From: Thermogemmatispora tikiterensis
GTDB lineage: Bacteria; Chloroflexota; Ktedonobacteria; Ktedonobacterales; Ktedonobacteraceae
Length of the DNA: 64,000 nucleotides
Reading direction: 5' to 3'
Assembly: GCF_003268475.1 (NCBI RefSeq)
Contig: NZ_MCIF01000002.1
Coordinates: 288,570 to 352,569, forward strand
In this document: piece after piece, positions 2,283-59,540 of the stretch
Position numbering within the stretch: the stretch's first letter is position 1
Layout of the letters: every line of letters begins with the position of its first letter
The notes under the pieces: generated by a model
The model's database searches: none
Told to the model about the DNA's origin: nothing
What the model saw: the letters and a program-made list of their open reading frames with translations, nothing else
Program-made: the position numbers and the translations under genes

Positions 2283-2649
2283 GGCGACGCTGACCTGGAT
2301 CGAGGTGGCAACCCTCGATGAGCTTTGGGAGGGAGAGATGCTAGAGGTAGAGGTAGATGGGCAGCCTGTTCTTCTGATGCATCTCTCTGGTGGCGAAATC
2401 GTAGCATTCCAGGGCGTCTGCCCCCATCAGGAATATCCGCTTGTCGAAGGGGAGCTGGATCTTGACACCGAGACGTTAACCTGCTCCGGTCACCATTGGC
2501 AGTTCCACGCTCGAAGTGGTTGCGGGATTAATCCCGAGGGATGTACCCTCTACCGCTACAGCGTCAGGTTGGACGGCTCAACGATTCTCATCGGCTATCC
2601 GACAGGCAGCGAGAGCAGGCAGCGTTACCATCGCTGCAGAGAGGAGTAA
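2269..2649 (+). CDS. tmoC: Rieske ferredoxin of toluene monooxygenase (TmoC family)
   Basis: [2Fe-2S] Rieske ferredoxin that passes electrons from a reductase to the diiron hydroxylase. The cluster ligands are C51 and H53 (CPHQ) and C72 and H75 (CSGHHW), followed by the GCGINPEGC segment typical of TmoC. Two in-frame ATGs (2269, 2275) follow the GGAGG inside the end of tmoB; 2269 has the better spacing (6 nt), and this choice makes a 14-nt overlap with tmoB. The protein has about 126 residues, slightly longer than T4moC because of a basic tail. No ferredoxin is encoded with the ring-hydroxylating dioxygenase elsewhere in the window, so this one might serve both enzymes (inference). Confidence 0.94.
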   Translation: MPMDEATLTWIEVATLDELWEGEMLEVEVDGQPVLLMHLSGGEIVAFQGVCPHQEYPLVEGELDLDTETLTCSGHHWQFHARSGCGINPEGCTLYRYSVRLDGSTILIGYPTGSESRQRYHRCREE

Positions 2650-7428: not shown

Positions 7429-8751
7429 ATGAAACAGCGATTTCTCATCATAGGAGCGGGCCAGGCAGGGGTCTCTGCAGCAGTGACTCTCAGACATGAG
7501 GGCTTCGATGGGGAGATCATGCTGATCGGGGCCGAATCTCATCTACCCTATGAACGACCACCTCTATCAAAAGATTATTTGCTCGGCCAAAAACCTATTG
7601 ATGATCTATTTATACACAATAGCAGGTTCTATGTTGAAAATCACATTCAAACACTGCTTGGGGTGAAAGCTGTACGAGTAAATCCCTACGAAAAGGTCGT
7701 GGAGCTGGCGCGAGCGAACTGCGTTCGACCCACGATTGCCTATGATAAATTGCTCATTGCCACCGGTGTGCGCAATCGGAAGCTGAGGGTCCCCGGGGCT
7801 ACACTTGAAGGGATCTACTACCTCCGCACCATAGAAGAGGCTGATGCTATCCGTCAAGCCTGCCGCAGCGGTCAGCGCGCAGTGCTGGTTGGTATGGGCT
7901 TCATTGGCTGCGAAGTAGCGGCATCGCTGCGCCAAAGCGGTATCGAGGTCGTAGCCATAGAAGCCTATAAGACCCCTTTGTACCGCGTCGTCGGTGAGAA
8001 AATAGGGAAAGTATTTGAAGAGATTCATCGCGAACATGGCGTGCGCTTTCTCTTTGAAGAGACAATTGTCGCTTTCGAGGCATCTCAGCGAGTGCAGTGT
8101 GTCGTCACCAGCAGTGGCCGGCGGATCGACTGTGACTTTGTCATTATCGGCGTGGGGGTTGAACCTGTCACAGAGCTGGTGGAAGGAAGCGAAGTACAGA
8201 TAGAAAACGGTATCGTTGTTAATCAATATTGCCAGACTCAGGTGCCAGACATCTACGCTGCCGGTGATGTCGCTAATCACTTCCACCCCGTGGTAGGTAA
8301 AAAGATGCGGGTGGAGCACTGGCAGAATGCCATCTCTCAGGGCAGAGCCGCTGCTCTAAACATGTTAGGCAGGCGGGAACCCTATCAGGAGGTCCACTGG
8401 TTCTGGTCTGACCAGTACAAGTATAATGTGCAGTACGCTGGCTTCCCCTGTGCCTGGGATCAGCTCGTGGTGCGAGGAAAGCTCAACGAGCACAAATTTA
8501 CTGCCTTCTATATGCAAGAAGGCAAGGTTATGGCAGTGATTAGTATCAACAGAGGAAAGGATATTTTGCGAACTATACCACTAATACGGGCGCAGATCCC
8601 CGTAGATCCGCTCAAGCTGCAAGACGAAGCCACAGATCTCCGCTCGCTGCAGCCGAGAGCTGTGCACTTGCGTCGCTCCCTTAATCACGGAGGCAGCTTC
8701 TCCGAGCTACCCTCGGCCTCTGAAACTGAGAAGGGACAGCTCCAGCCGTAG
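7429..8751 (+). CDS. FAD/NAD(P)H ferredoxin reductase (BphA4/rubredoxin-reductase type)
   Basis: Flavoprotein reductase of 440 residues that oxidises NAD(P)H and reduces a ferredoxin. The N-terminal FAD motif is IIGAGQAGVSAA, followed by LPYERPPLSKDYL, the conserved segment of the CamA/BphA4 family. The second nucleotide-binding site is LVGMGFIGCEVAASL, and the FAD-binding IYAAGDVA precedes a C-terminal reductase domain (VHWFWSDQYKYNVQYAG). Unlike Pseudomonas TmoF, it has no plant-type [2Fe-2S] domain. It is the only ferredoxin reductase in the window and so the likely donor for TmoC and perhaps also for the Rieske dioxygenase. It has its own 322-nt upstream gap and a GGAGG ribosome site. Confidence 0.9.
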   Translation: MKQRFLIIGAGQAGVSAAVTLRHEGFDGEIMLIGAESHLPYERPPLSKDYLLGQKPIDDLFIHNSRFYVENHIQTLLGVKAVRVNPYEKVVELARANCVRPTIAYDKLLIATGVRNRKLRVPGATLEGIYYLRTIEEADAIRQACRSGQRAVLVGMGFIGCEVAASLRQSGIEVVAIEAYKTPLYRVVGEKIGKVFEEIHREHGVRFLFEETIVAFEASQRVQCVVTSSGRRIDCDFVIIGVGVEPVTELVEGSEVQIENGIVVNQYCQTQVPDIYAAGDVANHFHPVVGKKMRVEHWQNAISQGRAAALNMLGRREPYQEVHWFWSDQYKYNVQYAGFPCAWDQLVVRGKLNEHKFTAFYMQEGKVMAVISINRGKDILRTIPLIRAQIPVDPLKLQDEATDLRSLQPRAVHLRRSLNHGGSFSELPSASETEKGQLQP

Positions 8752-14309: not shown

Positions 14310-15629
14310 TTAGCGACTATTGGAACACATCCACTCGAAGTAGGTCGTCCAGAAGTGCCGCTGGGCATACTCCGTATAGTCTACCGGATAGGCCTGCCCG
14401 GGTCCTGGCCAATCGGTGAGCGGTTGCAGATGGTCCAGGCCCATGCGGTAATTTAGAGGGATCGTCCGGGCTAGTTGTCCTTTGGCCACCTTCGTGATAC
14501 TCGACCAGTTCTCGGTGTCATCCTGCTCGAGGGTACCAGAGGTTCCGAACTGGAGCACATAAGCCCGGTACGAGGCTTCTTTCCACTCCTCTGGGGCATC
14601 CCGCTCCACAAGGTACCAGCTCCAGATTTCCATCCGGTCTGGCCCCAGAGGTCGCCATACCCGGATAGTGAAGTAGGCTACTGGTGGTGTACCCGGCATA
14701 ATGCCCGGCGCGTTCAGGAAACTCAAATTAGGAAAGAGCGTAGAGTGACTTTGCCAAAGGTCGTGATCCATAATGGCATGGTGGGCAGGCGTGAGATTGG
14801 CGCGCATTGCTCCGATCAGATGCGGATAAAGTGCCGCATATGGCAGGTTGGGAACGTAGCCGCCAGCCCAGGGACCGACGATCGCCTGAGGGCCATCCTT
14901 GTGGAAATTGGCGTCGGGGACTGGCAAGATACCAACCTCGACCGTGCTCCGGTGAGTGAAGGCCGTGTGGTAGGCGTCGCCGATGAAGTTATCTGCTCCG
15001 AGTTTCCAGTTAGCGGGGAAAATCCAGCGATCGGGTGCACCGCGCACCTCTAAGCCAGCGGTGCTCTTCTTGAGGTAGAAGTCCAGATAGAAGGTCGCTT
15101 CTCCTAGATACTCTCGCAGCGGAACTGCTTCGGGGTCAAGGTTGACGAAGAGGAGCCCCTCATAGCTCTCCAGCCGCACGCTGATCAGCGGCCACTCCCC
15201 CCGCTGGAGTCCCTCGGTCCCATACACTTCCCGGTGGAAGGGTACTCCGATCAGCTCGCCCGTGTTCTTGTAGGTCCAGCCATGATACGGACAGCGGAAG
15301 AAAGCGGCGTTGCCCGCTTCTGCCCGACAGACCTGCATGCCTCGGTGGCGACACATGTTGTAGAGAGCCCGAATTTCACCGCTCTCCGTCCGTACGATGA
15401 TCAGTGGATCATCGGCCACGTAGCGCACGACGTAGTCACCCGGCCTGGGAATCTCCGACTCATGCGCGACAAAATGCCAGGCTCGGGCATAGATGCGCTC
15501 CTTTTCCAGTCGGAAGATCTCTGGATCGCTGAAGAGACCGGCAAGCAAATAGGCACGCTGCAGGAACTTCTCCTGGGCAGCTGCCAGATACTCTTCTGGT
15601 CCTTGCACTCGCTGCGCGGTTACTGTCAT
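14310..15629 (-). CDS. aromatic ring-hydroxylating dioxygenase alpha subunit (Rieske)
   Basis: Catalytic subunit of a toluene/biphenyl-type dioxygenase that adds both O2 atoms to the ring to give a cis-dihydrodiol. The Rieske cluster ligands are C93, H95, C113 and H116 in a CxH-x17-CxxH arrangement. The mononuclear iron site is in DNFIGDAYHTAFTH: the bridging Asp is D218 and the His ligands are H221 and H226. At 439 residues from the ATG at 15629 (after GGAGGTG) it has normal length. It is the first gene of the operon. No dedicated ferredoxin or reductase follows, so TmoC and the BphA4-like reductase may supply electrons. Confidence 0.94.
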   Translation of the reverse strand: MTVTAQRVQGPEEYLAAAQEKFLQRAYLLAGLFSDPEIFRLEKERIYARAWHFVAHESEIPRPGDYVVRYVADDPLIIVRTESGEIRALYNMCRHRGMQVCRAEAGNAAFFRCPYHGWTYKNTGELIGVPFHREVYGTEGLQRGEWPLISVRLESYEGLLFVNLDPEAVPLREYLGEATFYLDFYLKKSTAGLEVRGAPDRWIFPANWKLGADNFIGDAYHTAFTHRSTVEVGILPVPDANFHKDGPQAIVGPWAGGYVPNLPYAALYPHLIGAMRANLTPAHHAIMDHDLWQSHSTLFPNLSFLNAPGIMPGTPPVAYFTIRVWRPLGPDRMEIWSWYLVERDAPEEWKEASYRAYVLQFGTSGTLEQDDTENWSSITKVAKGQLARTIPLNYRMGLDHLQPLTDWPGPGQAYPVDYTEYAQRHFWTTYFEWMCSNSR

Positions 15630-44122: not shown

Positions 44123-44183
44123 GGTGGTCGAGACCAACAGGATACAAGTACGCTCTCACATGCTGAGGAAAGGAGCAACCGCC

Positions 44184-46979
44184 ATGCCCCAGCCCCGACC
44201 CCTGCCGGGGGGGTCAGCAGCGTCGAAGGGGCAGCCGACCACACTCTTTGACCTGCCCTTTTCGCACCCCCTGCGTGTCTTCTTTGCGCCTCGCAGTATC
44301 GCCGTCGTTGGAGCCACTGAGCGCCCAGGCAGCGTCGGGCGAGCCGTGCTCGCGAATCTGACCACTGCTCCTTTTGGCGGCTCCGTCTTTCCGGTCAATC
44401 TCCATCGCTCCAGTGTGCTCGGCAGGCGCGCCTACCCGCGCGTCACGGATCTTCCAGCGCCGGTGGATCTGGTCGTGATTGCTACGCCGGCGGAGACCGT
44501 CCCTTCGGTGATTGCCGACTGCGTGGCCGCCGGGGTCGAAGGGGCGATCATTCTCACTGCTGGTTTTCGCGAGCGAGGTCCAGCTGGCCAGGCCCTGGAG
44601 CGCCAGGTCCTCGAAGAGGCGCGACGCGGCGGACTGCGGCTTCTGGGACCCAACTGTCTGGGCCTGATGAACCCGCGCCTGGGGCTGAATGCGACCTTCG
44701 CCAGCGGGATGGCCCTGCCGGGACAGATCGCCTTCCTGAGCCAGAGCGGGGCCTTATGCAGCGCCATTCTCGATTGGAGCCTGCAGGAGCACATCGGCTT
44801 CAGCGCCTTTGTCTCGGTCGGTTCGATGCTCGACCTCGGCTGGGGGGAGTTGCTCGACTACCTGGGGGATGATCCGCATACCGGCTGCATTCTCCTCTAT
44901 CTGGAGACCGTGGGCGACGCTCGGGCCTTCCTCTCCGCGGCCCGGGCCGTGGCACGGCGCAAACCCGTGATCCTCTTGAAAGGGGGTCAAACTCCCGAGG
45001 CTTTGCAAGCTGCCATCTCCCACACGGGGGCCATCGCCGTGCGCCAGGAGATCTTCGAGGCAGCCTGTAGTCGCTGCGGCCTGCTGCAGGTGGAGAGCAT
45101 CGACGAGCTGTTCGCGATGGCAGAGGTGTTGGCGCGGCAGCCCCGCCCCCAGGGGCCACACTTCACCATCGTGACCAACGCGGGCGGTGCCGGTGTGCTG
45201 GCTGCCGATGCGCTGGCGAAAGCCGGGGGGACGCTGACCCCGCTCTCCTCGGAGACACGGGCCGCCCTCGATGCGCTGCTCCCCCCCTACTGGAGTCGCC
45301 AGAACCCGGTAGACATCCTGGGGGATGCCGATCCCGAACGCTATGCCCGGGCCATCGCCATCCTCTCTCGTGAGCCGGCCAGCGATGGCTTGCTGGTCAT
45401 TCTGACCCCCCAGGCCATGAGCGACCCCACCCGTACCGCCGAGCGCGTAGTTAAGGCCGTGGCAGGTAGCACCCGGCCCGTGCTGGCAAGCTGGATGGGA
45501 GGCAGCAGCGTGGCAGCGGGCCACGAGATTCTGACGCGCGCCGGCATTCCGACATTTGCTTCCCCGGATACGGCGGCCCGCGCTTTCTGCGCCATGTGGC
45601 GCGCCAGCAAGCATCTACAGGGCCTCTACGAGACGCCCAGTGTGGTGGACGATCCCGAGGAGAGCGCCGGTCGGCGCGCGCAGGTCGCCGGCTGGCTAAC
45701 GGCGGCCCGCCAGGCCGGGCACACGCTGCTCAGCGAGCCGGAGGCGAAAGCGGTCCTTCAGGCATACGGCATACCGACCGTCGAGACCCGCATCGCGCTC
45801 ACCGAAGACGAGGTGGTCCAGCAGGCGGAGCAGCTCGGCTACCCGGTGGTCCTGAAGCTACTCTCCCCTACGATCACCCACAAGAGCCGTATGGGGGGCG
45901 TCCGCCTCGCCCTACGCACGGCTGAGGAGGTACGGCAGGCCTACCGGGCCATCGCCGAGGCTGCAGAGCGCCAGGCGGGAGCCGGGCAGATGCAGGGGGT
46001 TACGGTGCAGCCGATGGTCACGCTGGAGGGCTACGAGCTGATCGTGGGCAGCTTCTGCGACCCCCAGTTTGGGCCGGTCCTGCTCTTTGGCAGCGGCGGA
46101 CGCCTGGTCGAGGTGCAACGCGATACCGCTCTGGCGCTGCCGCCGCTGACCACGACGCTGGCGCGACGCCTGCTGGAGCGCACGCGCATCTTTGCCGCCC
46201 TCCAACATGGGGCTGCTGGCCTGCCAGCGGTGGATCTGACGGCACTCGAACGCCTGCTCGTGCGTTTCAGCCTGCTCCTGGTCGAGCAGCCGCTGATCAG
46301 GGAGTGCGACATCAACCCCGTGCTGGCGGCAGGCGATCATCTGCTTGCGCTCGATGCCCGGATCGTGCTGCATTCGATTGATGTGCCCGAAATAGCACTG
46401 CCGCGCCCGGCGATTCGTCCCTACCCAAGCCACTACATCGGGAGCTGGCAGCTCCCTGATGGCACACCGGTGACGATCCGCCCGATTCGCCCGGAAGACG
46501 AGCCGCTGATGGTGCGCTTCCACGAACGGCTCTCGGAGCGCAGTGTCTATCTGCGCTGGCTGCATGTCCTTGGTCTGAGTCAACGCATCGCCCATGAGCG
46601 GCTGGTAGATCGCTGCTTCATCGACTACGATCGAGAGCTGGCCCTGGTAGCCGTGGCTCGGGAGGAGCCGTCGGGCGCTGGCACAGGGACGGCAGAGACT
46701 CTGCTGGGGGTCGGGCGTCTGATCAAGCTGCCCGGGGGAGAGGAGGCCGAGTTTGCGCTGCTGATTGCCGATCAGGTGCAGGGGCAGGGACTGGGAACCG
46801 AGCTGCTGCGGCGCTTGCTGGAGATCGCCCGGCAGGAGGGCTTGCGACGCTTGCAGGGCCGCATACTGCCAGAGAACCAGGCCATGCTGCGGATCTGTCG
46901 CAAGCTTGGCTTCCAGCTGACCTACAATCGCGAGGAGCAGCTGATGCAGGCAACCTCCCTATTGCCAGAAGGGAGCTGA
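44184..46979 (+). CDS. ADP-forming acyl-CoA synthetase-like protein fused to GNAT acetyltransferase (Pat type)
   Basis: 931 residues. Domain 1 is a CoA-binding Rossmann fold (FFAPRSIAVVGATERPGSVGRAVLANL). Next come the succinyl-CoA-ligase-like domains with ISHTGAIAVRQEIFE, which holds the His that is phosphorylated in ADP-forming acetyl-CoA synthetases. An ATP-grasp half follows (YPVVLKLLSPTITHKSRMGGVRLAL). The last 175 residues are a GNAT domain (VTIRPIRPEDEPLMVRFHERLSERSVYLRWL; acetyl-CoA loop VQGQGLGTELLRRLLEIA). The overall order is that of Salmonella Pat/E. coli PatZ lysine acetyltransferases. The retained His leaves real synthetase activity possible. The ATG at 44184 is 8 nt after AAAGGAG. 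Confidence 0.9.
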   Translation: MPQPRPLPGGSAASKGQPTTLFDLPFSHPLRVFFAPRSIAVVGATERPGSVGRAVLANLTTAPFGGSVFPVNLHRSSVLGRRAYPRVTDLPAPVDLVVIATPAETVPSVIADCVAAGVEGAIILTAGFRERGPAGQALERQVLEEARRGGLRLLGPNCLGLMNPRLGLNATFASGMALPGQIAFLSQSGALCSAILDWSLQEHIGFSAFVSVGSMLDLGWGELLDYLGDDPHTGCILLYLETVGDARAFLSAARAVARRKPVILLKGGQTPEALQAAISHTGAIAVRQEIFEAACSRCGLLQVESIDELFAMAEVLARQPRPQGPHFTIVTNAGGAGVLAADALAKAGGTLTPLSSETRAALDALLPPYWSRQNPVDILGDADPERYARAIAILSREPASDGLLVILTPQAMSDPTRTAERVVKAVAGSTRPVLASWMGGSSVAAGHEILTRAGIPTFASPDTAARAFCAMWRASKHLQGLYETPSVVDDPEESAGRRAQVAGWLTAARQAGHTLLSEPEAKAVLQAYGIPTVETRIALTEDEVVQQAEQLGYPVVLKLLSPTITHKSRMGGVRLALRTAEEVRQAYRAIAEAAERQAGAGQMQGVTVQPMVTLEGYELIVGSFCDPQFGPVLLFGSGGRLVEVQRDTALALPPLTTTLARRLLERTRIFAALQHGAAGLPAVDLTALERLLVRFSLLLVEQPLIRECDINPVLAAGDHLLALDARIVLHSIDVPEIALPRPAIRPYPSHYIGSWQLPDGTPVTIRPIRPEDEPLMVRFHERLSERSVYLRWLHVLGLSQRIAHERLVDRCFIDYDRELALVAVAREEPSGAGTGTAETLLGVGRLIKLPGGEEAEFALLIADQVQGQGLGTELLRRLLEIARQEGLRRLQGRILPENQAMLRICRKLGFQLTYNREEQLMQATSLLPEGS

Positions 46980-47127: not shown

Positions 47128-48156
47128 TCAGTCAAGGTCGTCCTGCAGCGTGCCCCAGGGTGTGCGCGGCGCCTCTTCGATTCCCTGGGGACGAACGATC
47201 AGCAGCGGCAGGCGGGTCCGGGCCAGCACCCGCTCGGTCACGCTCCCCAGGAGCCAGCGCTGCAGACCCTCTCTGCCGTGGGTGGACATGGCCAGCAGAT
47301 CACAGCCCCGGGACAGAGGCGTGTCTGCCAGGTCCTGGCCCTGCTCAGCCACATCAAGGATGGTTTGCGCTACATCAGAGCCGGTATGCACCGACCAGGT
47401 GAGCTCAAGCTGCAGGCCAGCGACCTGGGGGGCGACAAGCCCGGCGCGGATCTGTTCCACGGTGGTCGCCAGATAGCGTCGGGCCCGGGCCAGGCGCCGT
47501 TCGCGCTCGTGTTGGGCCGCCTCATCAGCAGGCTCTTCCTCATCGGCCTCCACAACCGCTAGCAGATGCAGAGCGGCAGGGGCCGGAGCAGCCAGCGCAT
47601 GGATCAGAGCCGCAGCTGGCTCCAGGGCAGCCTTGGCCCGAACGGAACCATCAAGCGGTACCACGGCCCGAAAGGGGCGCTCGTATCCCGGTTGCGGACC
47701 GGCCAGCATCTCACCGTGAGCACGGAGCACCAGGACAGGGATAAGTGCGTGACGAATCAGCCTGAGCGCCACGCTACCCAGGGCCCAGCGCTGCAGACCT
47801 CGATAGCCATGACTGCAAAGCACCAGGAGGTCGGCGCCTACCTCTGGCCCAAGACGCAGCAGCTGATCGGCGGGGAGCCCCGAACGCACGATCTTTTCTG
47901 TGGGCACGTCATGGAGAATCGGCAGGGCGGCAACGTGCTGCAAATAGGCCTCTGCCGCTTCCGTGGCGCTCTCCAGCCATGAGTGCATTGTCACTGGATC
48001 AAGCGCGGTCGGGGCCCAGAGCAGCGCAGTACCAGTCTGCACAATGCGGGCCAGAATCAGGCTGCCTCCACTGGCACGTGCCAGCCGGGCCGCCACCGGG
48101 AGGGCCTGCTCTGCGCGCTGCGAGCCATCCAGCGGGACAAGAATACGGTGAAACAT
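47128..48156 (-). CDS. tandem universal stress protein (two UspA domains)
   Basis: 342 residues. Domain 1 runs from MFHRILVPLDGSQRAEQAL to LVLCSHGYRGLQRWALGSVALRLIRHALIPVLVL. Domain 2 runs from AVVPLDGSVRAKAALEPA to MSTHGREGLQRWLLGSVTERVLARTRLPLLIV. Both carry the G-x2-(L)-x-RW-x-(L)GSV ATP-binding end. The ATG follows AGGAGG by 6 nt; upstream in-frame codons have no ribosome site. It has its own four-box promoter and is divergent from the molybdoenzyme cluster. Confidence 0.92.
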   Translation of the reverse strand: MFHRILVPLDGSQRAEQALPVAARLARASGGSLILARIVQTGTALLWAPTALDPVTMHSWLESATEAAEAYLQHVAALPILHDVPTEKIVRSGLPADQLLRLGPEVGADLLVLCSHGYRGLQRWALGSVALRLIRHALIPVLVLRAHGEMLAGPQPGYERPFRAVVPLDGSVRAKAALEPAAALIHALAAPAPAALHLLAVVEADEEEPADEAAQHERERRLARARRYLATTVEQIRAGLVAPQVAGLQLELTWSVHTGSDVAQTILDVAEQGQDLADTPLSRGCDLLAMSTHGREGLQRWLLGSVTERVLARTRLPLLIVRPQGIEEAPRTPWGTLQDDLD

Positions 48157-48230
48157 CCATGACCTCCTGTTTCTCACAGGGCGCTGGCCCTTGCTCAGCC
48201 AGCTCGCCCAGCCTATTGTCTCTTGCCTGC

Positions 48231-48296
48231 AGTATCGCAGAACGAGCACACAAAGCGGTCTCAACCGTGACGGTGGGGCTCACAGCAGGATCACAG
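48231..48296 (-). promoter_or_regulatory. four-box promoter of the UspA gene at 48156
   Basis: Half-sites ACACAA (48248), TCTCAA (48259), TCACAG (48280) and TCACAG (48291) stand at spacings 11, 21 and 11. The -10 GATACT (48231-48236) is at the standard 10-nt distance. Confidence 0.68.
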
Positions 48297-48601: not shown

Positions 48602-49750
48602 GTGAGTCAGGCCGCTCCTCTGCAGCAGCATCCTCCGGAGCCTGGCCCTTCCCATCCGCAGACCACGGTGGTCCGCTCTCGTTTTCAGCCGGGATTGCGC
48701 ACCCGCTGCATCCTGTACGGGGTGCTGGCCGCTGCCGCCTTGACTGGCCTGATCGCCCTTGGATCGCGCGGCTTTCACTGGTTTGACGCGGCTCTCATCG
48801 GCTACGTGGTGGCCACCATCTTCGCCACTGCTGCCGTGACTTATAAGTACAGCTTCTGGCTGGCTCGTCCCCCGACTGGACGCTACTGGCGACGCAGCTG
48901 GCGGCTCTTCTTCTCCTACGAGAACTTCCGACGCTACACGACGCTGATACCGCTATCAATCCTTGATCTCTTCTCCCAGCAATTTATCCGCCGTCGCAGC
49001 ATCTATCGCTGGATCATGCATCAGTGCATCTTCTGGGGAGTGCTGCTGTCCTGCTGCATCACCTTCCCACTCACCTTTGGCTGGATTCGTATGACGCTGA
49101 CGCCGACGGGCGAGCACCTCCTCTGGTTCTTTGGCTTTCCCCTCTTTTCGTTTCGCCCGGAGTCGGTCCTCGGATTCCTTATTTATCATGCGCTCGATAT
49201 CACAGCCTTGCTGCTGCTGGTTGGGCTGGTTCTGGCTCTTCACCGTCGCTTTCACGACCTGGCTCTGATCAGTATCCAACGCTTTGGCTTTGACATCGTC
49301 CCTCTGGCGTTGTTGCTGGCCATTGTGGTCAGCGGGCTGGCGCTCACCGCCGATAGTGCCTGGCTAGGAGGAGCCTACTACTGGTATCTTTCGCTGAGCC
49401 ATGAGGTCGTGGTGGTGCTCTGGCTCATCTCTCTGCCGTTTGGCAAATTCTTCCATCTGATCGAGCGTCCGGCCACGGTGGGGATCGAGCTGTACTGGAA
49501 AACTGGTGAAGGGACAGCGTGGCAGCGCTGTGCACGCTGTGGAGAGGCTTTTGCCCCGGCTCGCTTCATCGAGGATCTTAAGAAAACGCTGCTGGAGGTA
49601 GGCGAGGACTATAGGCTGCATCGCGATAGCTCTGCCTCGAGGCCGGAGCAGGCGCTCTGGTGGCAGGATCTTTGCCCCGCGTGCAAGCGTATCGCGCGTG
49701 GGCAGGCAACGCTAGCCGCCATTGATCCCGAGGGCAATCGCTTTCTGTAA
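48602..49750 (+). CDS. NarI-like integral membrane protein with C-terminal double CxxC
   Basis: 382 residues with about six membrane helices (CILYGVLAAAALTGLIALG, IFWGVLLSCCITFPLTFGWI, GFLIYHALDITALLLLVGLVLAL, IVPLALLLAIVVSGLALTA, LSHEVVVVLWLISLPFGKFFHL). Histidines within or near helices (MHQCIF, IYHAL, LSHEV, KFFHL) fit a di-heme b cytochrome such as NarI/DsrM. The HEVVV...PFGKFFH stretch is typical. The soluble tail has CARCGEAF and CPACKR, possibly a metal site facing the cytoplasm. It starts with GTG after AAAGGAG and heads the molybdoenzyme operon, so it probably links the quinone pool to it. Confidence 0.75.
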   Translation: MSQAAPLQQHPPEPGPSHPQTTVVRSRFQPGLRTRCILYGVLAAAALTGLIALGSRGFHWFDAALIGYVVATIFATAAVTYKYSFWLARPPTGRYWRRSWRLFFSYENFRRYTTLIPLSILDLFSQQFIRRRSIYRWIMHQCIFWGVLLSCCITFPLTFGWIRMTLTPTGEHLLWFFGFPLFSFRPESVLGFLIYHALDITALLLLVGLVLALHRRFHDLALISIQRFGFDIVPLALLLAIVVSGLALTADSAWLGGAYYWYLSLSHEVVVVLWLISLPFGKFFHLIERPATVGIELYWKTGEGTAWQRCARCGEAFAPARFIEDLKKTLLEVGEDYRLHRDSSASRPEQALWWQDLCPACKRIARGQATLAAIDPEGNRFL

Positions 49751-49814
49751 GTTGTCAGGCCAGGCCAAATGGAGCAAGATTGGCTCCACTGCGTTGTTGA
49801 AAGAGGGGTTCGCT

Positions 49815-52103
49815 ATGTCTGTCGATAAGAGCATCTTTCGGCGACGGCAGCGCCAGAAAGAGACCTTCGATTTCCATGCTGCGACCAGTGTCCCAACGGC
49901 CTGGGAAACCAGCCTCGACGTCGAACGCTATGTTCCCACGCACTGCTGTTTCTGCGGGGTACAGTGCGGGATGTATCTGAAGGTGGCGAATGGCAAAGTG
50001 GTCGGGGTCGAGCCACGGGAGGATTTTCCCCTCAATCATGGCATGCTCTGCCCCAAGGGGACCAATGCCTATCAGCTCGTACACCATCCCGATCGGCTGA
50101 GGCAGCCGCTGATGCGCAAGGGGGGAAAAAAGAGTTCGCTGGAGCCTGTAAGCTGGGAAGAGGCGCTTGATACTATCGTCCAGCGTTTCCAGGAGGTGCA
50201 GCGGGCCTATGGCAGGGACGCTGTAGCTGTCTTCAGCGGCTCGACGATGACCAATGAGAAATGCTATCTAATGGGGAAATTCGCGCGTGTCGCCTTGGGG
50301 ACTCGCCATATCGATTACAACGGGCGACTGTGCATGTCTTCTGCCACCGGCGCCAACGAGCGCGCGCTGGGTATAGATCGGGCAGCCAACCCGATCAGCG
50401 ACATGCTCCACGCTGATTGTATCTTCGTCATCGGGGCCAACGTGGGCGAATGTTTCCCTATCATCACGAGCTATCTCTGGCAGGCGCGTGATCGTGGTTG
50501 CAAGCTTATTGTGGCCGACCCGCGCCAGACGCCAATTGCCCGCACCGCCGATATGTTCCTGCCGCTGCGTCCTGGAACGGACCTGGCTTTGCTCACTGGC
50601 ATGCTGCATGTCCTCATCAAAGAAGGGCTGAGCAACGAGGCGTTCATCCGCGAGCGCACGGTCGGCTGGGAAGAAACGCGGGCGCTCGCTGAGCTATATC
50701 CCCCAGAGCGAGTGGCGCGCGTCTGCGGCCTGCGAGCGGATGCCATCGTCGAGGCGGCGCGTCTCTACGGGCGAGCGCGAGCAGCCCTGATTTATACGGC
50801 GCGCGGGCTGGAGCACCAGAGCAAAGGAGTCGATAACGGGCTGGCGGCAATCAATCTGGCCCTGGCCACCGGCAACTTTGGCCGGCCAGGTGCCGGATAC
50901 TGCACGCTGACGGGCCAGGGCAATGGCCAGGGAGGAAGGGAAGTCGGTCAGAAGGCCACGCAACTGCCAGGGTGCCGTGAGATTGAAGATCCCGAGGATC
51001 GGGCCTATATCTGCTCGGTCTGGGGCATTCGCGAGGATGAGCTGCCTCATGCTGGCTATCCTGCCACCCTGATGATCCCGGCGATGCTGCGGGGAGAGAT
51101 CCGCGCCTGTTTGCTGATCTGCTCGAATCCGCTCGTCTCGTTACCCGACCTGCATACCGCCGAGCGAGCTTTCCGCAGCCTGGATTTCTTTGTCGTTATC
51201 GATCCCTTTCTCTCAGAGACTGCTGAGCTGGCCGATGTGGTGCTGCCGGGCAACCTGTGGGCCGAAGAAGAGGGCACCACAACCTCGCTCGAAGGACGCG
51301 TCATCAAGTACAATCAGGCGGTCGATCCACCTGGGGGATGGCAGGACTGGCAAACGATCTGCGAGCTGGCGAGGCGCCTGGGCAAGGGCCAGTATTTTGC
51401 CTATCGCTCGCCGCGCGACATTTTTGATGAGCTGCGCCTCTGCACGCGCGGGGCCAAGTCCGACTACTGGGGAATCAGCTACGAGAAGATCGAGGAACAG
51501 GGAGGCGTCTTTTGGCCCTGTCCGGATGAGGAGCATCCGGGGACGCCGCGCCTCTACGAGGAGCGCTTTGGCTTCCCTGATGGGCGAGCGCGCTTCCATG
51601 CGGTGCCCTACATTCCGCCAGCGGAAGAGCCGGACGAGACCTATCCCTTTGTCCTGACCACGGGGCGGGTGATCTACCACTATCTCTCGGGGAACCAGAC
51701 ACGGCGCATTCCCTTCCTGCGTGAAATGGCGCCCTATCCCTGGGTTGAGCTGCACGAGCAGACGGCTCAGCGTCTGGGAGTCGCCGACGGGGACTGGGTG
51801 ACGGTGCGCACACGCCGTGGCGAGATGACGGCCCCGGCCCTGGTCGTGCGCACGATCCGCCCCGACACGCTCTTTATCCCCTACCATTATGGACAGAGCC
51901 AGGCGGTCAACCAGCTCACGAACCCGGTGCTAGAGCCAATGATGAAGATCCCGGAGTTCAAGGTCTGCGCAGCGGCTATCGAGAAGGCCCCGGGACCACC
52001 GGAGTGGGCCCAGGCGCTCAATCAAGAAGACCTCGCCCGGGCACAAGAACGGCGACGTGAGCTACCTGCCGCGGCCCGCCGGGCCACGCCGCAACCGCGC
52101 TAG
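49815..52103 (+). CDS. molybdopterin oxidoreductase, cytoplasmic, nitrate-reductase-like
   Basis: Mo-bisPGD enzyme of 762 residues. The N-terminal [4Fe-4S] site is C44-x2-C47-x3-C51-x27-C79 (HCCFCGVQCG ... MLCPKG). The molybdenum ligand is Cys, C173 in YNGRLCMSSATGANE, as in NapA/NarB/Nas enzymes; formate dehydrogenases have Sec or Cys followed by H. The last domain (FVLTTGRVIYHYLSGNQTR) is the molybdopterin-dinucleotide-binding fold. The N-terminus has arginines but no hydrophobic Tat helix, so it acts in the cytoplasm. A nitrate-type substrate is the best guess, not proven. The downstream genes supply a ferredoxin chain. The start at 49815 follows GAGGGG. Confidence 0.82.
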   Translation: MSVDKSIFRRRQRQKETFDFHAATSVPTAWETSLDVERYVPTHCCFCGVQCGMYLKVANGKVVGVEPREDFPLNHGMLCPKGTNAYQLVHHPDRLRQPLMRKGGKKSSLEPVSWEEALDTIVQRFQEVQRAYGRDAVAVFSGSTMTNEKCYLMGKFARVALGTRHIDYNGRLCMSSATGANERALGIDRAANPISDMLHADCIFVIGANVGECFPIITSYLWQARDRGCKLIVADPRQTPIARTADMFLPLRPGTDLALLTGMLHVLIKEGLSNEAFIRERTVGWEETRALAELYPPERVARVCGLRADAIVEAARLYGRARAALIYTARGLEHQSKGVDNGLAAINLALATGNFGRPGAGYCTLTGQGNGQGGREVGQKATQLPGCREIEDPEDRAYICSVWGIREDELPHAGYPATLMIPAMLRGEIRACLLICSNPLVSLPDLHTAERAFRSLDFFVVIDPFLSETAELADVVLPGNLWAEEEGTTTSLEGRVIKYNQAVDPPGGWQDWQTICELARRLGKGQYFAYRSPRDIFDELRLCTRGAKSDYWGISYEKIEEQGGVFWPCPDEEHPGTPRLYEERFGFPDGRARFHAVPYIPPAEEPDETYPFVLTTGRVIYHYLSGNQTRRIPFLREMAPYPWVELHEQTAQRLGVADGDWVTVRTRRGEMTAPALVVRTIRPDTLFIPYHYGQSQAVNQLTNPVLEPMMKIPEFKVCAAAIEKAPGPPEWAQALNQEDLARAQERRRELPAAARRATPQPR

Positions 52104-52144
52104 GAGCGAGCAAGCGAAGAAGAGAAGGAAGGAGGAGAAAGAGC

Positions 52145-52927
52145 GTGCCTGAAACGGTGACCATCAAGCAAATGTTCCTCGATCCTTCGCGCTGCATCGG
52201 CTGCCGCTCCTGTGTAGCCGCCTGCCGTGAGTGTGATACCCATCGGGGCGAGAGCATGATCTACATCGATTACATCGAGCGCGCTAACACGGTGGCCTCC
52301 TCGCCGACCGTCTGTATGCATTGCGAGGACCCGCTGGCGCCCTGCGCCCAGGTCTGCCCGGCCCAAGCTATTCTTGTAAGTCCCGATGGGGTGGTGCATC
52401 AGGCTGATGAAACGCGCTGCATCTATTGCCGAAACTGTGGCTACGCCTGCCCCTTCGGGGTACCCAAGTTTGATATTCAAGGGCACTATATGCGCAAATG
52501 CAACCTCTGCTACGACCGAACCAGCCAGGGCAAAGGTCCTATGTGTGCCACGGTCTGTCCGACCCAGGCCATTTTCTATGGCACCTATGAGGAGTGGCTG
52601 GCGGCAGGCCGGGGACAACAGGGGGCGAAACCTGTCAATGTCTTCTATTTTGGTCGCCAGCGTGTGCGAACCCGCAACTACGTGGTGCTCACCGAGGATG
52701 ACGAGGCTCTCGATCTGCTCGCACTCCTGGACAAGGCCTCGCTGGGTCTCGGACAGGAGGCCCCCGCAGCAACAGCGAGCCGCAACGCTGCTGACTGGGT
52801 GGATGCTCGAACGGCTGGCCTCCCTGAGCGGGCTGCGCCTGCTCAGCCCTGGACGCCACGTGAGCCGGCCCCTGCTCCGGTACCAGCCAGTCCGGCAGGG
52901 CCTGCCGGAAGGGATGCAGCCAGATAA
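52145..52927 (+). CDS. 4Fe-4S dicluster ferredoxin subunit (NrfC/PhsB-like)
   Basis: 260 residues with four cysteine clusters for four [4Fe-4S] centres: CIGCRSCVAACREC, CMHCEDPLAPCAQVCP, CIYCRNCGYACPFG and CNLCYDRTSQGKGPMCATVCP. The first 200 residues match the electron-transfer subunit of DMSO-reductase-family complexes. The Ala/Pro-rich tail from about residue 205 (QPWTPREPAPAPVPASPAGP) is probably flexible. There is no signal peptide. It starts with GTG after GGAGGAG, 42 nt from the catalytic gene. Confidence 0.9.
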   Translation: MPETVTIKQMFLDPSRCIGCRSCVAACRECDTHRGESMIYIDYIERANTVASSPTVCMHCEDPLAPCAQVCPAQAILVSPDGVVHQADETRCIYCRNCGYACPFGVPKFDIQGHYMRKCNLCYDRTSQGKGPMCATVCPTQAIFYGTYEEWLAAGRGQQGAKPVNVFYFGRQRVRTRNYVVLTEDDEALDLLALLDKASLGLGQEAPAATASRNAADWVDARTAGLPERAAPAQPWTPREPAPAPVPASPAGPAGRDAAR

Positions 52928-52975
52928 CCTGCCTGTCGACCATGCCAGTAACGCAGACGGAAGGAGATTCTGCCT

Positions 52976-53530
52976 ATGGAATCAGCAACACATCGCTTTC
53001 GGGTCCGGCGCCAGGGTCAGCCCGGGTCGGCGCCTCACCCTCCTGAACCTGCCGTCGAATGGCGCCAGGAGTTCCCATATGTCTGGAGCGAAGATGAGGT
53101 AGTCACGCGGCGCGATACCCTCTTCTTCCTGCTGGCAGGCTCTGGCGCCCTTTGTCTGGCAACGGGCACCCTGGCGCTCGTGGGAGCAGTTTCGGAGGGA
53201 AGTCCCGCAAAGGTTGTCCCCATTGCCCGTGTAGACGAGCTGGTAGAGAATGGCTGGAAAGTGTTTGCTTACCCGGACGAATACGCGCAAGGCATTCTGA
53301 TCAATCTGCCGGGTAAGGGACTGGTGGCTTACAGCGATGTCTGCACACATCTCTCCTGTGCGGTGACCTACCAGCCGGAGAGCCGTCGACTGTATTGTCC
53401 CTGCCATGAGGGTCTCTTTGATGCCGCCACGGGTGATGTGCTGGCCGGGCCTCCTACGCGCCCACTGCCTATCATCGAGTTGGAGGAGCGGCAGGGAACC
53501 ATCTACGCTGTGAGGATGGTGCTGCGATGA
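52976..53530 (+). CDS. membrane-anchored Rieske [2Fe-2S] protein
   Basis: 184 residues. A single N-terminal membrane segment (LFFLLAGSGALCLATGTLALVGAVS) follows an Arg-Arg pair (TRRDT), resembling the Tat-dependent anchor of cytochrome bc1/b6f Rieske proteins. The cluster site is CTHLSC and CPCHEGLFD, with the extra disulfide cysteines of bc-type Rieske proteins. The cluster would sit on the outer face. A quinol-oxidase-type Rieske in a molybdoenzyme operon is unusual. The next gene starts within its last codons (ATGA overlap). Confidence 0.88.
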   Translation: MESATHRFRVRRQGQPGSAPHPPEPAVEWRQEFPYVWSEDEVVTRRDTLFFLLAGSGALCLATGTLALVGAVSEGSPAKVVPIARVDELVENGWKVFAYPDEYAQGILINLPGKGLVAYSDVCTHLSCAVTYQPESRRLYCPCHEGLFDAATGDVLAGPPTRPLPIIELEERQGTIYAVRMVLR

Positions 53531-53886
53531 GTCAGACAGCGAACGAATGGGGAGAGCCGACAGGACTTCCGCTGGATCGTTCATTCAGACCGGCCCGCGC
53601 CAATCCAGATGACCCACCAGTTCAGCCCCCTCCGCGCGGGCGGCATGGCCTGCTGCCTGGTCCACGCTATCTGAGTATTCCGGGGCGGGCGGCCATCGTC
53701 CAGGCACAGGTCTTGCTCGTCGCGCTCATTGTCATGGTACAGCTCTGGCTGGTGACCGATGCTCTCTACGAGCTGCTCTCGGGGCGGACACGGCTGCTGC
53801 TCTGGCTGGCCATCGCGAGCCTGCTGGCCTTCCTTCTGGCACTCGTGATCACGCTCTGGCCGAGCCGTCAGCTGGCTGAGAAATGA
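53527..53886 (+). CDS. small two-helix membrane protein of the molybdoenzyme operon
   Basis: 119 residues. A Pro/Arg-rich cytoplasmic stretch of about 50 residues is followed by two membrane helices (AIVQAQVLLVALIVMVQLWLVTDALYELL and LLLWLAIASLLAFLLALVITLW). I do not recognise a named function. The 4-nt overlap with the Rieske gene strongly suggests a small subunit or anchor of the same complex. Confidence 0.75.
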   Translation: MSQTANEWGEPTGLPLDRSFRPARANPDDPPVQPPPRGRHGLLPGPRYLSIPGRAAIVQAQVLLVALIVMVQLWLVTDALYELLSGRTRLLLWLAIASLLAFLLALVITLWPSRQLAEK

Positions 53887-53980
53887 CGGTGAAGCAGTCA
53901 GGAGCGCCTTTCATCTCAGCAGGCGGGATGCTGATCACCTGGTAAGGCAACCAGTGCATCTGTGCAGAGGAGAACAGGAC

Positions 53981-55075
53981 GTGCAACGGCGTTCTTTCAC
54001 TGTCTATCGAGCGCAGTGGTGGAGCTGGGTCAAACAGCTCTACCCCGGCTATTTTGCCTGCGTGATGGCCACAGGCATCGTCTCGGTCGCTTTGTTCCTC
54101 GGCCAGGTCTTCCTCCTCTCAGCAGTGCTGGGCTGGCTTGGCGGTGGCCTCTTTCTCTTCTTGCTCGTTGTCTATGGGTTGCGGCTGATACGCTATCCCA
54201 GAGCTGTTTTCCAGGATGCGACCGATCCCGGGAAGCTTTTTGGCTATTTCACAGCAGTTGCGGCTCCGGGGGTGCTGGCCACGCGCGCTGCTCTCAGCCA
54301 CTGGGTAGCGCTTCCTGTGATATTGACAGGGTGGGCGGCTGGGATCTGGTTCTTCCTGACCTATTGGGCCTTTGCCGTCCTGCTCTTTCGCAACGACCGA
54401 CCGCTGGAGCAGTCGGTCAACGGTGGCTGGCTCATTACCATTGTCGGGACCGAATCGCTGGCAATCAACTGGATCGTGCTGAGTGCTTTCTGGCCCGATC
54501 AGGCGCCGCTGCTCCAGTTGACCGCGTATGCCTTCTGGACCCTGGGGGTCTTGCTCTATCTGATCTTCATCACCTTCATCGTCTATCGGTTCTGCTTCGC
54601 GAAGATCCAGCCTGCCGATCTGACGCCTCCCTATTGGATCAACATGGGAGCAATGGCGATCACGACCGTAGCCGGTGTCCGTTTGTTGCAGGCGCCGCAT
54701 CCGGTTCCGCTCCTGGTGAGTGTCCAGCCCTACATCACCGGGTTCACGCTGATGATGTGGGCCTGGGGTACGTGGTGGCTGCCGCTGCTAGTGCTCATTG
54801 GCATCTGGAAATACGGGGTGAGGCGCCAGCCCGTGCGCTATGAGCCAGCGCTCTGGAGCATGGTATTTCCGCTGGGGATGTATGCGACGGCGCTGCACCT
54901 GCTGGGGCAGTTGCCCGGGCTGGCCTTCTTGCGTGCGCTGGCCACCCCTTGTACCTGGATCGCCTTGAGCGCCTGGCTGCTGGTGATGGGAGGCTGGGTG
55001 TTCTCCGTTGGTCGGGCGGTACGTCGAAGGCAGGCGGGCCAGGAGCAGCCAGCGCAGCCAGCAGCTGTTTCCTGA
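53981..55075 (+). CDS. TDT-family transporter (TehA/SSU1-like)
   Basis: 364 residues with about ten membrane helices. The first carries the family signature LYPGYFACVMATGIVSVALFLGQ, and FFLTYWAFAVLLFRN and SLAINWIVLSAFW follow. Members export or import small anions (tellurite resistance, C4-dicarboxylate, sulfite). GTG at 53981 has GAGGAG 7 nt upstream; an earlier in-frame GTG lacks one. Its position after the molybdoenzyme cluster suggests transport of the substrate or product anion, such as nitrite or sulfite (inference). Confidence 0.82.
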   Translation: MQRRSFTVYRAQWWSWVKQLYPGYFACVMATGIVSVALFLGQVFLLSAVLGWLGGGLFLFLLVVYGLRLIRYPRAVFQDATDPGKLFGYFTAVAAPGVLATRAALSHWVALPVILTGWAAGIWFFLTYWAFAVLLFRNDRPLEQSVNGGWLITIVGTESLAINWIVLSAFWPDQAPLLQLTAYAFWTLGVLLYLIFITFIVYRFCFAKIQPADLTPPYWINMGAMAITTVAGVRLLQAPHPVPLLVSVQPYITGFTLMMWAWGTWWLPLLVLIGIWKYGVRRQPVRYEPALWSMVFPLGMYATALHLLGQLPGLAFLRALATPCTWIALSAWLLVMGGWVFSVGRAVRRRQAGQEQPAQPAAVS

Positions 55076-57857: not shown

Positions 57858-59327
57858 TCAGCTCAAAGGCTGCCCAGGGGCGGCGAACCCGCGGCCTTTC
57901 TGATCAAGCACCAGCACCCAGTCGGGGCCATCGCCGGGCGTGGTGAACTGTTGCGGGCCGCCGGTACTAACGTCGCCAATAGAGCTGGCGTTACCGCTGC
58001 GGGGATCATACCACCAGGCAGTGGCTGTGTCGCCAGCGATTTTGCTGGTGTCGATTGCGACGGTACGTACTGGGTCGGGAATATAGATAAAGGCATAACT
58101 ACCGTCCGAGGCGCGTGTCGCCTGCGCATGAAATGGACCGTCGCCCTCACCCGAAAGGATCAGGCTCTGATCCGGGATGCGTACGAAGTAGGGTCTAGAG
58201 AGCATCAAGTCGCGTAGATAGCGCATCTGAAGAGCGGCGGGATGGTCCAGGACACGATACCAGTAGAAGATGGCATAGGCGATTGGGCCATAGCCGGGCT
58301 GGAAGCACTGCCAGATCGAGTGGTTACCGTACGTATAGCCACAGCCTCCAGCGAAGACCGAGCGGTAGGCTTGACGTCGCACCTCGTACTCGGTGAAGTA
58401 GCCATTGCTCGGATCCCAGTTCACTGGGTGATCCTCATAGTTGCTCTCGCCATCGAGGACTGGCTTAGCAGGGGTCAGGCTATAGTCATGAGCGATTACT
58501 CCCCAGGTCGGCAGATCACGAGCGCTGTGGCCTGACTGCAGCATATTCATTGTCAACCAGGAGTCATTGTGGAACCATTGAGAGGAGGACTGGCCCCCGT
58601 TCGGGTGATAGGTCATGAAGGTCGGGCCTCCTACTCCGTCCCTGATGCCCGCTGCCATATTACGCCAGATGGTCTCATAGCCATCGGCGGGACGATCGCC
58701 CCCCAAAATCCAAAGGATATTACTGGCATTGCGATAGCGCTGACCGAGAAAGGTGCCATAGGGATAGGCGTTATCCTGGGTAAAGACAGCCGGCCCGATA
58801 CCGCGCTGCTGATTGACTTTATCACCCCAAGTGGGCAGTAGCCCGAGGTAGAGCCCATAATCCTGGGCCTTCTGCACCACATAATCGGCGAACTGGAAGT
58901 ATGCCTCATTGGGCCGAGTGGGATCGTCGCCGATCAGGGGCAGCTGCCCCTCGCGATTCGGCTGATGGAGGCCATCGTTTTCGGCTAGAATGACCGTCTG
59001 GATCACGTTAAAACCCTGCTGGCTACGGATGCGCAGATAGGTGTCCACATCGTCACGCGTCAAGCGATGCACGAGTTCCCAGGCTGTATCAGCCAACCAG
59101 AAAAAGGGCTGCCCATCTGCGGTGACCAGAAAGCGACCATTGTCGCTCACACCGACGTGTGGGAGGGAGACGCCTGTCTGTCTGGCATGGGAGGCGTTCG
59201 CCCGCGCAGCCTGGTGCCAGGCTCTGGTGTTCCAAGACTGAGCGGCGAGGCTAAGGCCAGCCGCGGTAGCTCCCTTTATGAAAGTACGACGCTTGAAGAC
59301 AGAGAAAAGAGACCGTTCTTGCTCCAT
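57858..59327 (-). CDS. Tat-exported glycoside hydrolase (DUF4038, apiosidase-like)
   Basis: About 489 residues. A twin-arginine signal (FKRRTFIKGATAAGLSLAAQSW) directs export. The catalytic TIM barrel of the DUF4038/DUF5060 apiosidase-like family follows: FFWLADTAWELVHRLTRDDVDTYLRIRSQQGFNVIQTVIL, NILWILGGDRP, and PVLDGESNYEDHP, where the Glu of DGE is a likely catalytic acid. A C-terminal beta domain (DGSYAFIYIPDPVRTVAIDTSKIAG) is family-typical. Fragments of a sugar ABC transporter lie on both sides, suggesting a former plant-glycan uptake locus. The ATG 4 nt after GGAGG (59327) was chosen over the one 1 nt after it. Confidence 0.88.
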   Translation of the reverse strand: MEQERSLFSVFKRRTFIKGATAAGLSLAAQSWNTRAWHQAARANASHARQTGVSLPHVGVSDNGRFLVTADGQPFFWLADTAWELVHRLTRDDVDTYLRIRSQQGFNVIQTVILAENDGLHQPNREGQLPLIGDDPTRPNEAYFQFADYVVQKAQDYGLYLGLLPTWGDKVNQQRGIGPAVFTQDNAYPYGTFLGQRYRNASNILWILGGDRPADGYETIWRNMAAGIRDGVGGPTFMTYHPNGGQSSSQWFHNDSWLTMNMLQSGHSARDLPTWGVIAHDYSLTPAKPVLDGESNYEDHPVNWDPSNGYFTEYEVRRQAYRSVFAGGCGYTYGNHSIWQCFQPGYGPIAYAIFYWYRVLDHPAALQMRYLRDLMLSRPYFVRIPDQSLILSGEGDGPFHAQATRASDGSYAFIYIPDPVRTVAIDTSKIAGDTATAWWYDPRSGNASSIGDVSTGGPQQFTTPGDGPDWVLVLDQKGRGFAAPGQPLS

Positions 59328-59540
59328 CATACCTCCTGCTTGGCGGCTTTTGCTGCGCTCAGAGAGAGCCCTGTATGAATCGGGCCAGGTAGGGGAGAGC
59401 GAGAGGAAGCCTCGACTGCCCACCACCCTCTACCCGGCCATATTAGAGGCATATCGCTGTGCTGCTCTCCATTCCTCTCTGGAGCTCGGGAGATGGGCGG
59501 AGCGCAGCAGGGGGGCGGTATGCTCGTCGAGAAGAGAAGC

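Follow-up and report, generated by a model that had tools for sequence, protein, structure and literature searches.

A gene set conserved across bacterial phyla encodes a putative cytoplasm-facing, membrane-bound nitrate reductase with its own Rieske protein

The window analysed here, a 64,000-nucleotide stretch of the Thermogemmatispora tikiterensis genome (contig NZ_MCIF01000002.1, positions 288,570 to 352,569), carries a run of six genes on one strand. Their products are, in order, a cytochrome b, a catalytic molybdopterin subunit (the Mo subunit), a four-cluster ferredoxin, a bc-type Rieske protein, a two-helix protein and a TDT/SLAC1 transporter (Table 1). At least four bacterial phyla share the first five genes as a conserved unit, and we argue below that this unit (the cassette) probably encodes a membrane-bound nitrate reductase. 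The window genome measures 6.0 Mb, and the records nearest to it are those of Thermogemmatispora (Ktedonobacteria, Chloroflexota); its Mo subunit shares 96% identity with that of a Thermogemmatispora metagenome-assembled genome (MAG) and 94% with that of T. aurantia. All six open reading frames (ORFs) named in an original prediction, which was made from the DNA letters without database searches, were found where it had put them and on the same strand, and the ORFs and family matches reproduced the gene order it gave. Its description of the genes as overlapping holds for the Rieske and two-helix pair (4 nt) and not for the others, which are separated by gaps of 41-67 nt. The Mo subunit gene starts at an ATG with a good ribosome site, and the TDT gene more likely starts at a GTG at 53981, which has AGGAG upstream, than at 53954.

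Table 1. The gene set and the adjoining carrier gene, in positions of the window. TM, transmembrane.
Product	Position	Strand	Features
Cytochrome b	48602..49750	+	Predicted di-heme, 6 TM helices, QmoC/NarI-like, cytoplasmic Cx2C...Cx2C tail
Catalytic molybdopterin subunit	49815..52103	+	762 aa, one [4Fe-4S], Cys173 as predicted Mo ligand in NGRLCMSS, no signal peptide
Ferredoxin subunit	52145..52927	+	Four-cluster, DmsB/FdnH/NrfC-like; Fer4_11 66.9 bits
Rieske protein	52976..53530	+	Membrane-anchored, bc-type, PF00355; Tat-type RR before single TM helix
Two-TM-helix subunit	53527..53886	+	DUF6755-like
TDT/SLAC1-family anion transporter	53954..55075	+	PF03595 152 bits

A profile search with the set's cytochrome detected it in 41 of 301 Chloroflexota genomes, in 22 of 396 genomes from the phylum of Streptomyces and in 9 of 237 from the phylum of a Myxococcota MAG, and a single-sequence search with the cytochrome returned four Deinococcus plasmids. 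Of the 55 loci read in Chloroflexota, Actinomycetota, Myxococcota and Deinococcus, 53 preserve the order of the cytochrome b, Mo subunit, ferredoxin and Rieske genes, all on a single strand, and contig ends truncate the remaining two. Some of these loci are closely related, so that the counts do not represent independent events, even though several phyla are spanned. Related genomes thus keep the set, and this synteny supports the original prediction that its products form one complex. Directly 3' of the Rieske gene, 53 of 54 loci have an ORF for two TM helices, and in 42 the two genes overlap by 4 nt. When loci were fetched by the catalytic subunit (at least 58% identity), the cytochrome, ferredoxin and Rieske genes were present wherever the stretch reaches, broken copies excepted. 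Because these loci were retrieved by the catalytic subunit alone, searching with the cytochrome did not create the linkage. In contrast, the cytochrome b, ferredoxin, Rieske and two-helix genes were found in none of 18 distinct loci of the NasC clade, the assimilatory-type relatives of the Mo subunit. Because the Rieske gene occurs in every cassette locus reaching that far and in no NasC-clade locus, its position is not accidental, and we rejected chance adjacency on synteny.

Several copies of the set are damaged. It has decayed in T. carboxidivorans PM5 (L045 8341-12188; L078 7629-11816), where the cytochrome b gene is gone, the catalytic gene is split over two frames and the ferredoxin gene is partial, with the Rieske, two-helix and TDT genes still intact. 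A further Thermogemmatispora genome (G002, L131) yielded no more than part of the cytochrome at the corresponding position. Genome G024 (L076 7920-10304) holds a second, broken copy in which the first 238 residues of the Mo subunit are fused in frame to a lantibiotic dehydratase (Lant_dehydr_N/C), and in G026 (L077 6156-8934) a deletion has left the beginning of the Mo gene joined to the last part of the two-helix gene, with cytochrome b and an HPP carrier gene kept.

The Mo subunit contains the Pfam domains Molybdopterin, Fe4S4 and Molydop_binding, and its top curated model is NasC (NF047855; 802 bits, cut-off 1100). A NirB-linked NasC-type paralogue also scores under this cut-off (838 bits), which thus cannot separate the two enzymes. 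The models for NarG (TIGR01580; 24 bits, cut-off 1084), NAPA (282 bits, cut-off 930) and PhsA (213.8 bits, cut-off 694) all fell short, and a family scan of the set's proteins gave no match to NrfD. These results, together with the lack of membrane genes at NasC loci, agree with the original prediction that the set matches none of the classical Nar, Nap, Nas, Psr or Phs operons. Neither an N-terminal hydrophobic segment nor a Tat signal was found in any full-length Mo-subunit homologue, which supports the expectation that the catalytic subunit works inside the cell.

The second-best curated model, Fdh-alpha, scored 660.6 bits, just below its cut-off of 666.25, and this raised the possibility that the set is a formate dehydrogenase (FDH) with a quinone-reducing cytochrome b. 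The best solved relatives of the Mo subunit by sequence are likewise FDHs, and the ferredoxin subunit is FdnH-like. The predicted Mo ligand argues otherwise: it lies in DYNGRLCMSS in the window protein, and this nitrate-type Cys-Met, not Cys/Sec-His, is present in every one of the 53 cassette homologues that could be read. Five of six FDH-type references, including E. coli FdhF and FdnG, have Cys/Sec-His, and the sixth (Pantoea) has Gln instead of His, whereas Paracoccus NapA and the NasA/NasC references have Met at the same position. In a careful maximum-likelihood tree of 40 proteins, the cassette enzymes formed one group (support 95/93) that joined the NasC-type enzymes of Streptomyces and Ktedonobacteria (91/88), with FDHs, NapA and proteobacterial NasA apart from both and PhsA very distant. 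A larger tree built by a quick method (61 rows, including Actinomycetota and Myxococcota) gave 99 for the cassette group and 100 for its join with NasC; in these trees some of the references sit on long branches, and neither B. subtilis NasC nor cyanobacterial NarB is represented. We rejected an FDH on the Cys-Met motif and the tree and regard it, given also that the neighbours are nitrate/nitrite carriers, as highly improbable. Of the outcome that the original prediction had set against itself, an assimilatory NarB/NasC enzyme with a Rieske gene beside it by accident, the sister position to NasC was found and the accident was not.

The strongest pointer to the substrate is the gene that follows the set. 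Within ~1.1 kb 3' of it, 40 of the 55 loci carry a recognised carrier gene, which encodes an HPP protein (PF04982) in 18, a NarK-type MFS protein in 15 and a TDT/SLAC1 protein in 7. TDT genes occupy this slot also in G160 and in four loci from the Myxococcota phylum, and so are not peculiar to Thermogemmatispora. NarK carries nitrate/nitrite; the NarK-type proteins tested, all from other genomes, had TIGR00886 as their best match, below its cut-off. At two Deinococcus plasmid loci the carriers are annotated as nitrate transporters, and one of these loci has them on both sides of the set. Nitrite transport has been shown for HPP proteins (Maeda et al. 2014, as cited in PMC4137279). Because three unrelated carrier families share one slot, and two of them are of nitrate/nitrite type, nitrate and nitrite are the substrates that the neighbourhood suggests. 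A different nitrate reductase, with a Cys-Thr Mo motif, lies near an HPP gene on a Curtobacterium plasmid (L083 4893-8367).

The original prediction had named nitrate or a sulfur oxyanion as the substrate. A reductase of sulphur oxyanions, polysulphide or similar compounds would suit a ferredoxin subunit that resembles PsrB/PhsB-type subunits and a cytochrome with QmoC and HmcE of sulphate reducers among its nearest models. Nitrate/nitrite-type carriers at 33 loci point the other way, as do the lack of an NrfD-type membrane subunit and the great distance of PhsA in the tree, and on these grounds we rejected a sulphur-oxyanion reductase, which appears scarcely probable. The nitrate half of the original assignment is supported.

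We found that the window genome has a separate NasC-NirB-NirD operon, and a model search detected neither NarG nor NapA in it. NarG is missing from 41 of 42 cassette genomes. Full-length NirB is present in 12 of the 42 and Cu nitrite reductase, above cut-off, in 2; these counts of nitrite reductases cover NirB and the Cu enzyme and leave out NirA, NrfA and NirS. Because both are so infrequent, the set is linked neither to assimilation through NirB nor to denitrification through NirK, and nitrite export fits the genome contents best. These data bear on the alternative that the set is an assimilatory nitrate reductase tethered to the membrane, which takes electrons from quinol instead of ferredoxin or NADH and makes nitrite for biosynthesis. 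Such an enzyme could share its mechanism with a respiratory one and differ in physiological role; the catalytic subunit is sister to NasC, and HPP carriers can import nitrite for assimilation (PMC4137279). However, the window genome and several others already own a NasC-type enzyme (in the window genome beside NirB and NirD), 30 of the 42 cassette genomes are without full-length NirB (NirA-type reductases stand outside this count), and no NirB lies within the searched stretch of any set read. We consider an assimilatory role unlikely.

The ferredoxin subunit has 16 cluster cysteines, corresponding to four [4Fe-4S] sites, that are kept in at least 52 of 54 homologues, and its PDB relatives are FdnH and PsrB-type proteins. 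A seventeenth cysteine (Cys30 in the extracted numbering), beyond these 16 ligands, is conserved in 53 of 54. The Rieske motif, CTHLSC...CPCHEG with both disulphide cysteines, is found in 54 of 54 homologues, and the RR immediately before the only TM helix is invariant in the 21 aligned. Because of these two features we assign the protein to the bc type and predict that it faces outward, which supports the original placement of the Rieske cluster outside. Its nearest solved relatives, 3fou and 1nyk, are Rieske proteins of quinol-cytochrome c reductase. We found no Cytochrom_B match, and thus no bc-type cytochrome b, in the cassette. The genome's only match to PF13631, a bc cytochrome b family, lies at C2:1940768; because this cytochrome b sits elsewhere with its own Rieske near, the cassette Rieske is an additional one. 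The two-helix protein scores 24.8 bits against DUF6755 in the window (cut-off 27) and 43.6 bits in Deinococcus.

Alignment of the cytochrome b revealed H140, H267, H285, C310, C313, C358 and C361 in 54 of 54 homologues and H196 in 52 of 54. By the positive-inside rule, both termini, loops 2 and 4 and the Cys tail would be cytoplasmic, and because of this charge pattern we place H196 and H267 near the outer surface of the membrane and H140 and H285 near the inner surface. The placement of the four histidines is that of a two-heme wire, suggesting that the protein binds two hemes. No Pfam or NCBIfam model matched the window cytochrome. Its homologues fit QmoC best, albeit weakly (10 of 16 members, best 7.4e-12, far below cut-offs); TcuB and HmcE are the other nearest weak models, and PF02665 (NarI) reached 22.2 bits with a Deinococcus homologue (cut-off 22.9). 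The label NarI-like in the original prediction thus fits only loosely: the two-heme His pattern is present, but PF02665 does not match the window protein and QmoC fits the homologues better. In Deinococcus records (L079 7705-8817; L133-L135 11854-12966) the set's cytochrome b is labelled 'MFS transporter', likely a misannotation.

We propose that the cassette encodes a five-subunit, cytoplasm-facing, membrane-bound nitrate reductase that works with a nitrate/nitrite carrier, a class of which we found no description in the open-access literature searched (where absence is not proof); we put the probability of this reading at roughly 0.7. The reaction of the complex is very probably the reduction of nitrate to nitrite in the cytoplasm. 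Menaquinol would be oxidised at the outer membrane face, and electrons would pass from the heme b of H196/H267 to that of H140/H285, through the four [4Fe-4S] clusters of the ferredoxin subunit and the [4Fe-4S] cluster of the catalytic subunit, to the Mo site, where nitrate would be reduced to nitrite in the cytoplasm. Because protons would be released outside and consumed inside, the reaction should conserve energy. Nitrite could then exit, or be swapped for nitrate, via the HPP, NarK or TDT carrier. The outer Rieske protein most likely shares the quinol site or a heme b and provides a second, outward electron port, which is the least certain part of the model. The gene set, its order, the motifs, the phylogeny and the carriers can be read directly from sequence; that hemes are bound, that nitrate is the substrate, that quinol is the donor and how the subunits are oriented are inferred, with the electron path modelled on what Nar-type enzymes are known to do.

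A number of results weigh against this proposal. The nitrate assignment is based on the motif, the clade and the neighbouring genes, and at 15 of the 55 loci the slot holds no carrier that we recognised. Divergence of the cytochrome prevents its confident assignment to a family: the hhalign probability for E. coli NarI was 2%, a profile search of the PDB with the cytochrome gave no match, and an AlphaFold model from eight sequences was poor (predicted local distance difference test score 45). Simple quinol-nitrate chemistry needs no Rieske protein. No NarJ or NapD-type chaperone gene was noticed within the set. Finally, the set is dispensable, as its decay in T. carboxidivorans PM5 and its partial loss from another relative show.

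FmdE-family genes lie near the set (L079 16434-17033, L133 20758-21375, L135 9556-10146 and L124 4879-5424) in Deinococcus and one Chloroflexota genome, and both FmdE proteins scanned contain a DksA-type zinc finger. Since no NarJ-like chaperone was noticed, we note the FmdE-family protein as a lead in the search for a protein that inserts the Mo cofactor.

The set might instead run in reverse as a nitrite oxidase, with nitrite oxidised inside and electrons passing via cytochrome b to the Rieske protein and then to an oxidase; a nitrite carrier and an outward outlet of high potential would suit this reading. A related layout, with a cytochrome c on the outside, is found in Nitrobacter-type nitrite oxidoreductase (NXR; PMC7694296). 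The NasC-like catalytic subunit and the presence of NarK among the carriers make this reverse reaction very unlikely. To our knowledge, known NXRs have a NarG-like alpha subunit, and we know of no nitrifiers in Thermogemmatispora, Ktedonobacter or Deinococcus. 

For a nitrate reductase with an outward Rieske, we tentatively suggest, as a possibility that we do not favour, a new class of respiratory enzyme in at least four phyla, in which a NasC-type enzyme was recruited into a quinol-oxidising unit of cytochrome b and Rieske protein. Such a unit could pass electrons to nitrate on the inside as well as to a periplasmic acceptor on the outside, so that one complex would reduce nitrate and also stand in for complex III.

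The cassette resembles several known systems in part. NasC/NasA enzymes (of Streptomyces, and the Ktedonobacteria NasC beside NirB) are likewise cytoplasmic, Cys-ligated proteins of 700-760 aa with a single [4Fe-4S] cluster and ~50% identity to the Mo subunit, but their loci are of the soluble type, without the membrane subunits that mark the cassette. NarGHI shares with it a Mo subunit on the N side, a four-cluster ferredoxin and a predicted di-heme cytochrome b, with the same expected electron path and proton balance. Unlike NarGHI, whose NarG has ~1240 aa, the cassette has a far shorter Mo subunit, a ferredoxin of DmsB size rather than NarH, no noticed NarJ gene, and extra Rieske and two-helix subunits. 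The Tat export and NapA model that characterize NapA, and the NrfD-type anchor and PsrA/PhsA-type catalytic subunit of Psr/Phs, are not found in the cassette. The weak match to the QmoC, TcuB and HmcE cytochromes, far below cut-offs, covers the heme-binding part, and the partners of those cytochromes are not NasC-type enzymes. With the bc complex the cassette shares the bc-type Rieske with its disulphide, but not the bc-type cytochrome b.

Redox subunits that face outward have been described beside other nitrate reductases. The haloarchaeal pNarGH operon also combines a nitrate reductase with a cytochrome b (NarC) and an outward Rieske (NarB), but its NarGH is exported and lies outside, and its nine-helix NarC is not a NarI homologue (PMC7754194), whereas the cassette has a NasC-type enzyme predicted to lie inside and a six-helix cytochrome. 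In H. mediterranei, NarB did not co-purify (PMC7754194). Thermus NarCGHI has likewise gained a periplasmic redox subunit, NarC, which is a di-heme cytochrome c and not a Rieske protein, and its catalytic part is NarG; NarC interacts with NarI and was proposed to branch electrons outward (PMC7694296). Streptomyces Nar1 depends on the Rieske-containing bcc-aa3 supercomplex (PMC7931247). None of these three pairs an inward NasC-type enzyme with its own Rieske.

Nar, Nap and Nas are the classes into which nitrate reduction is usually divided, and the catalytic subunit of the cassette is easily mistaken for an ordinary assimilatory enzyme, so that this use of nitrate may be overlooked. If the set serves nitrate respiration, surveys of genomes and metagenomes in which such genes are scored as assimilatory would miss this capacity among Ktedonobacteria, other Chloroflexota, Actinomycetota, Myxococcota and Deinococcus. 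DUF6755 would gain a home in this complex, and the HPP and TDT carriers are suggested to act on nitrate or nitrite in these bacteria. The set also offers a direct test of what a Rieske protein does when joined to an inward-facing reductase.

In the window, a divergent tandem universal stress protein gene (47128-48264, minus strand) adjoins the set, and universal stress genes also lie near it in loci L122 and L124. Further upstream is an acyl-CoA synthetase/GNAT fusion (44124-46979, plus strand). Two further Rieske domains (2293-2523, plus strand; 15228-15479, minus strand) and a FAD reductase-like stretch (7444-8391, plus strand) possibly belong to a ring-hydroxylating oxygenase cluster. On the other side of the set, an Apiosidase-like glycoside hydrolase with a C-terminal binding domain is encoded at 57858-59426 (minus strand).
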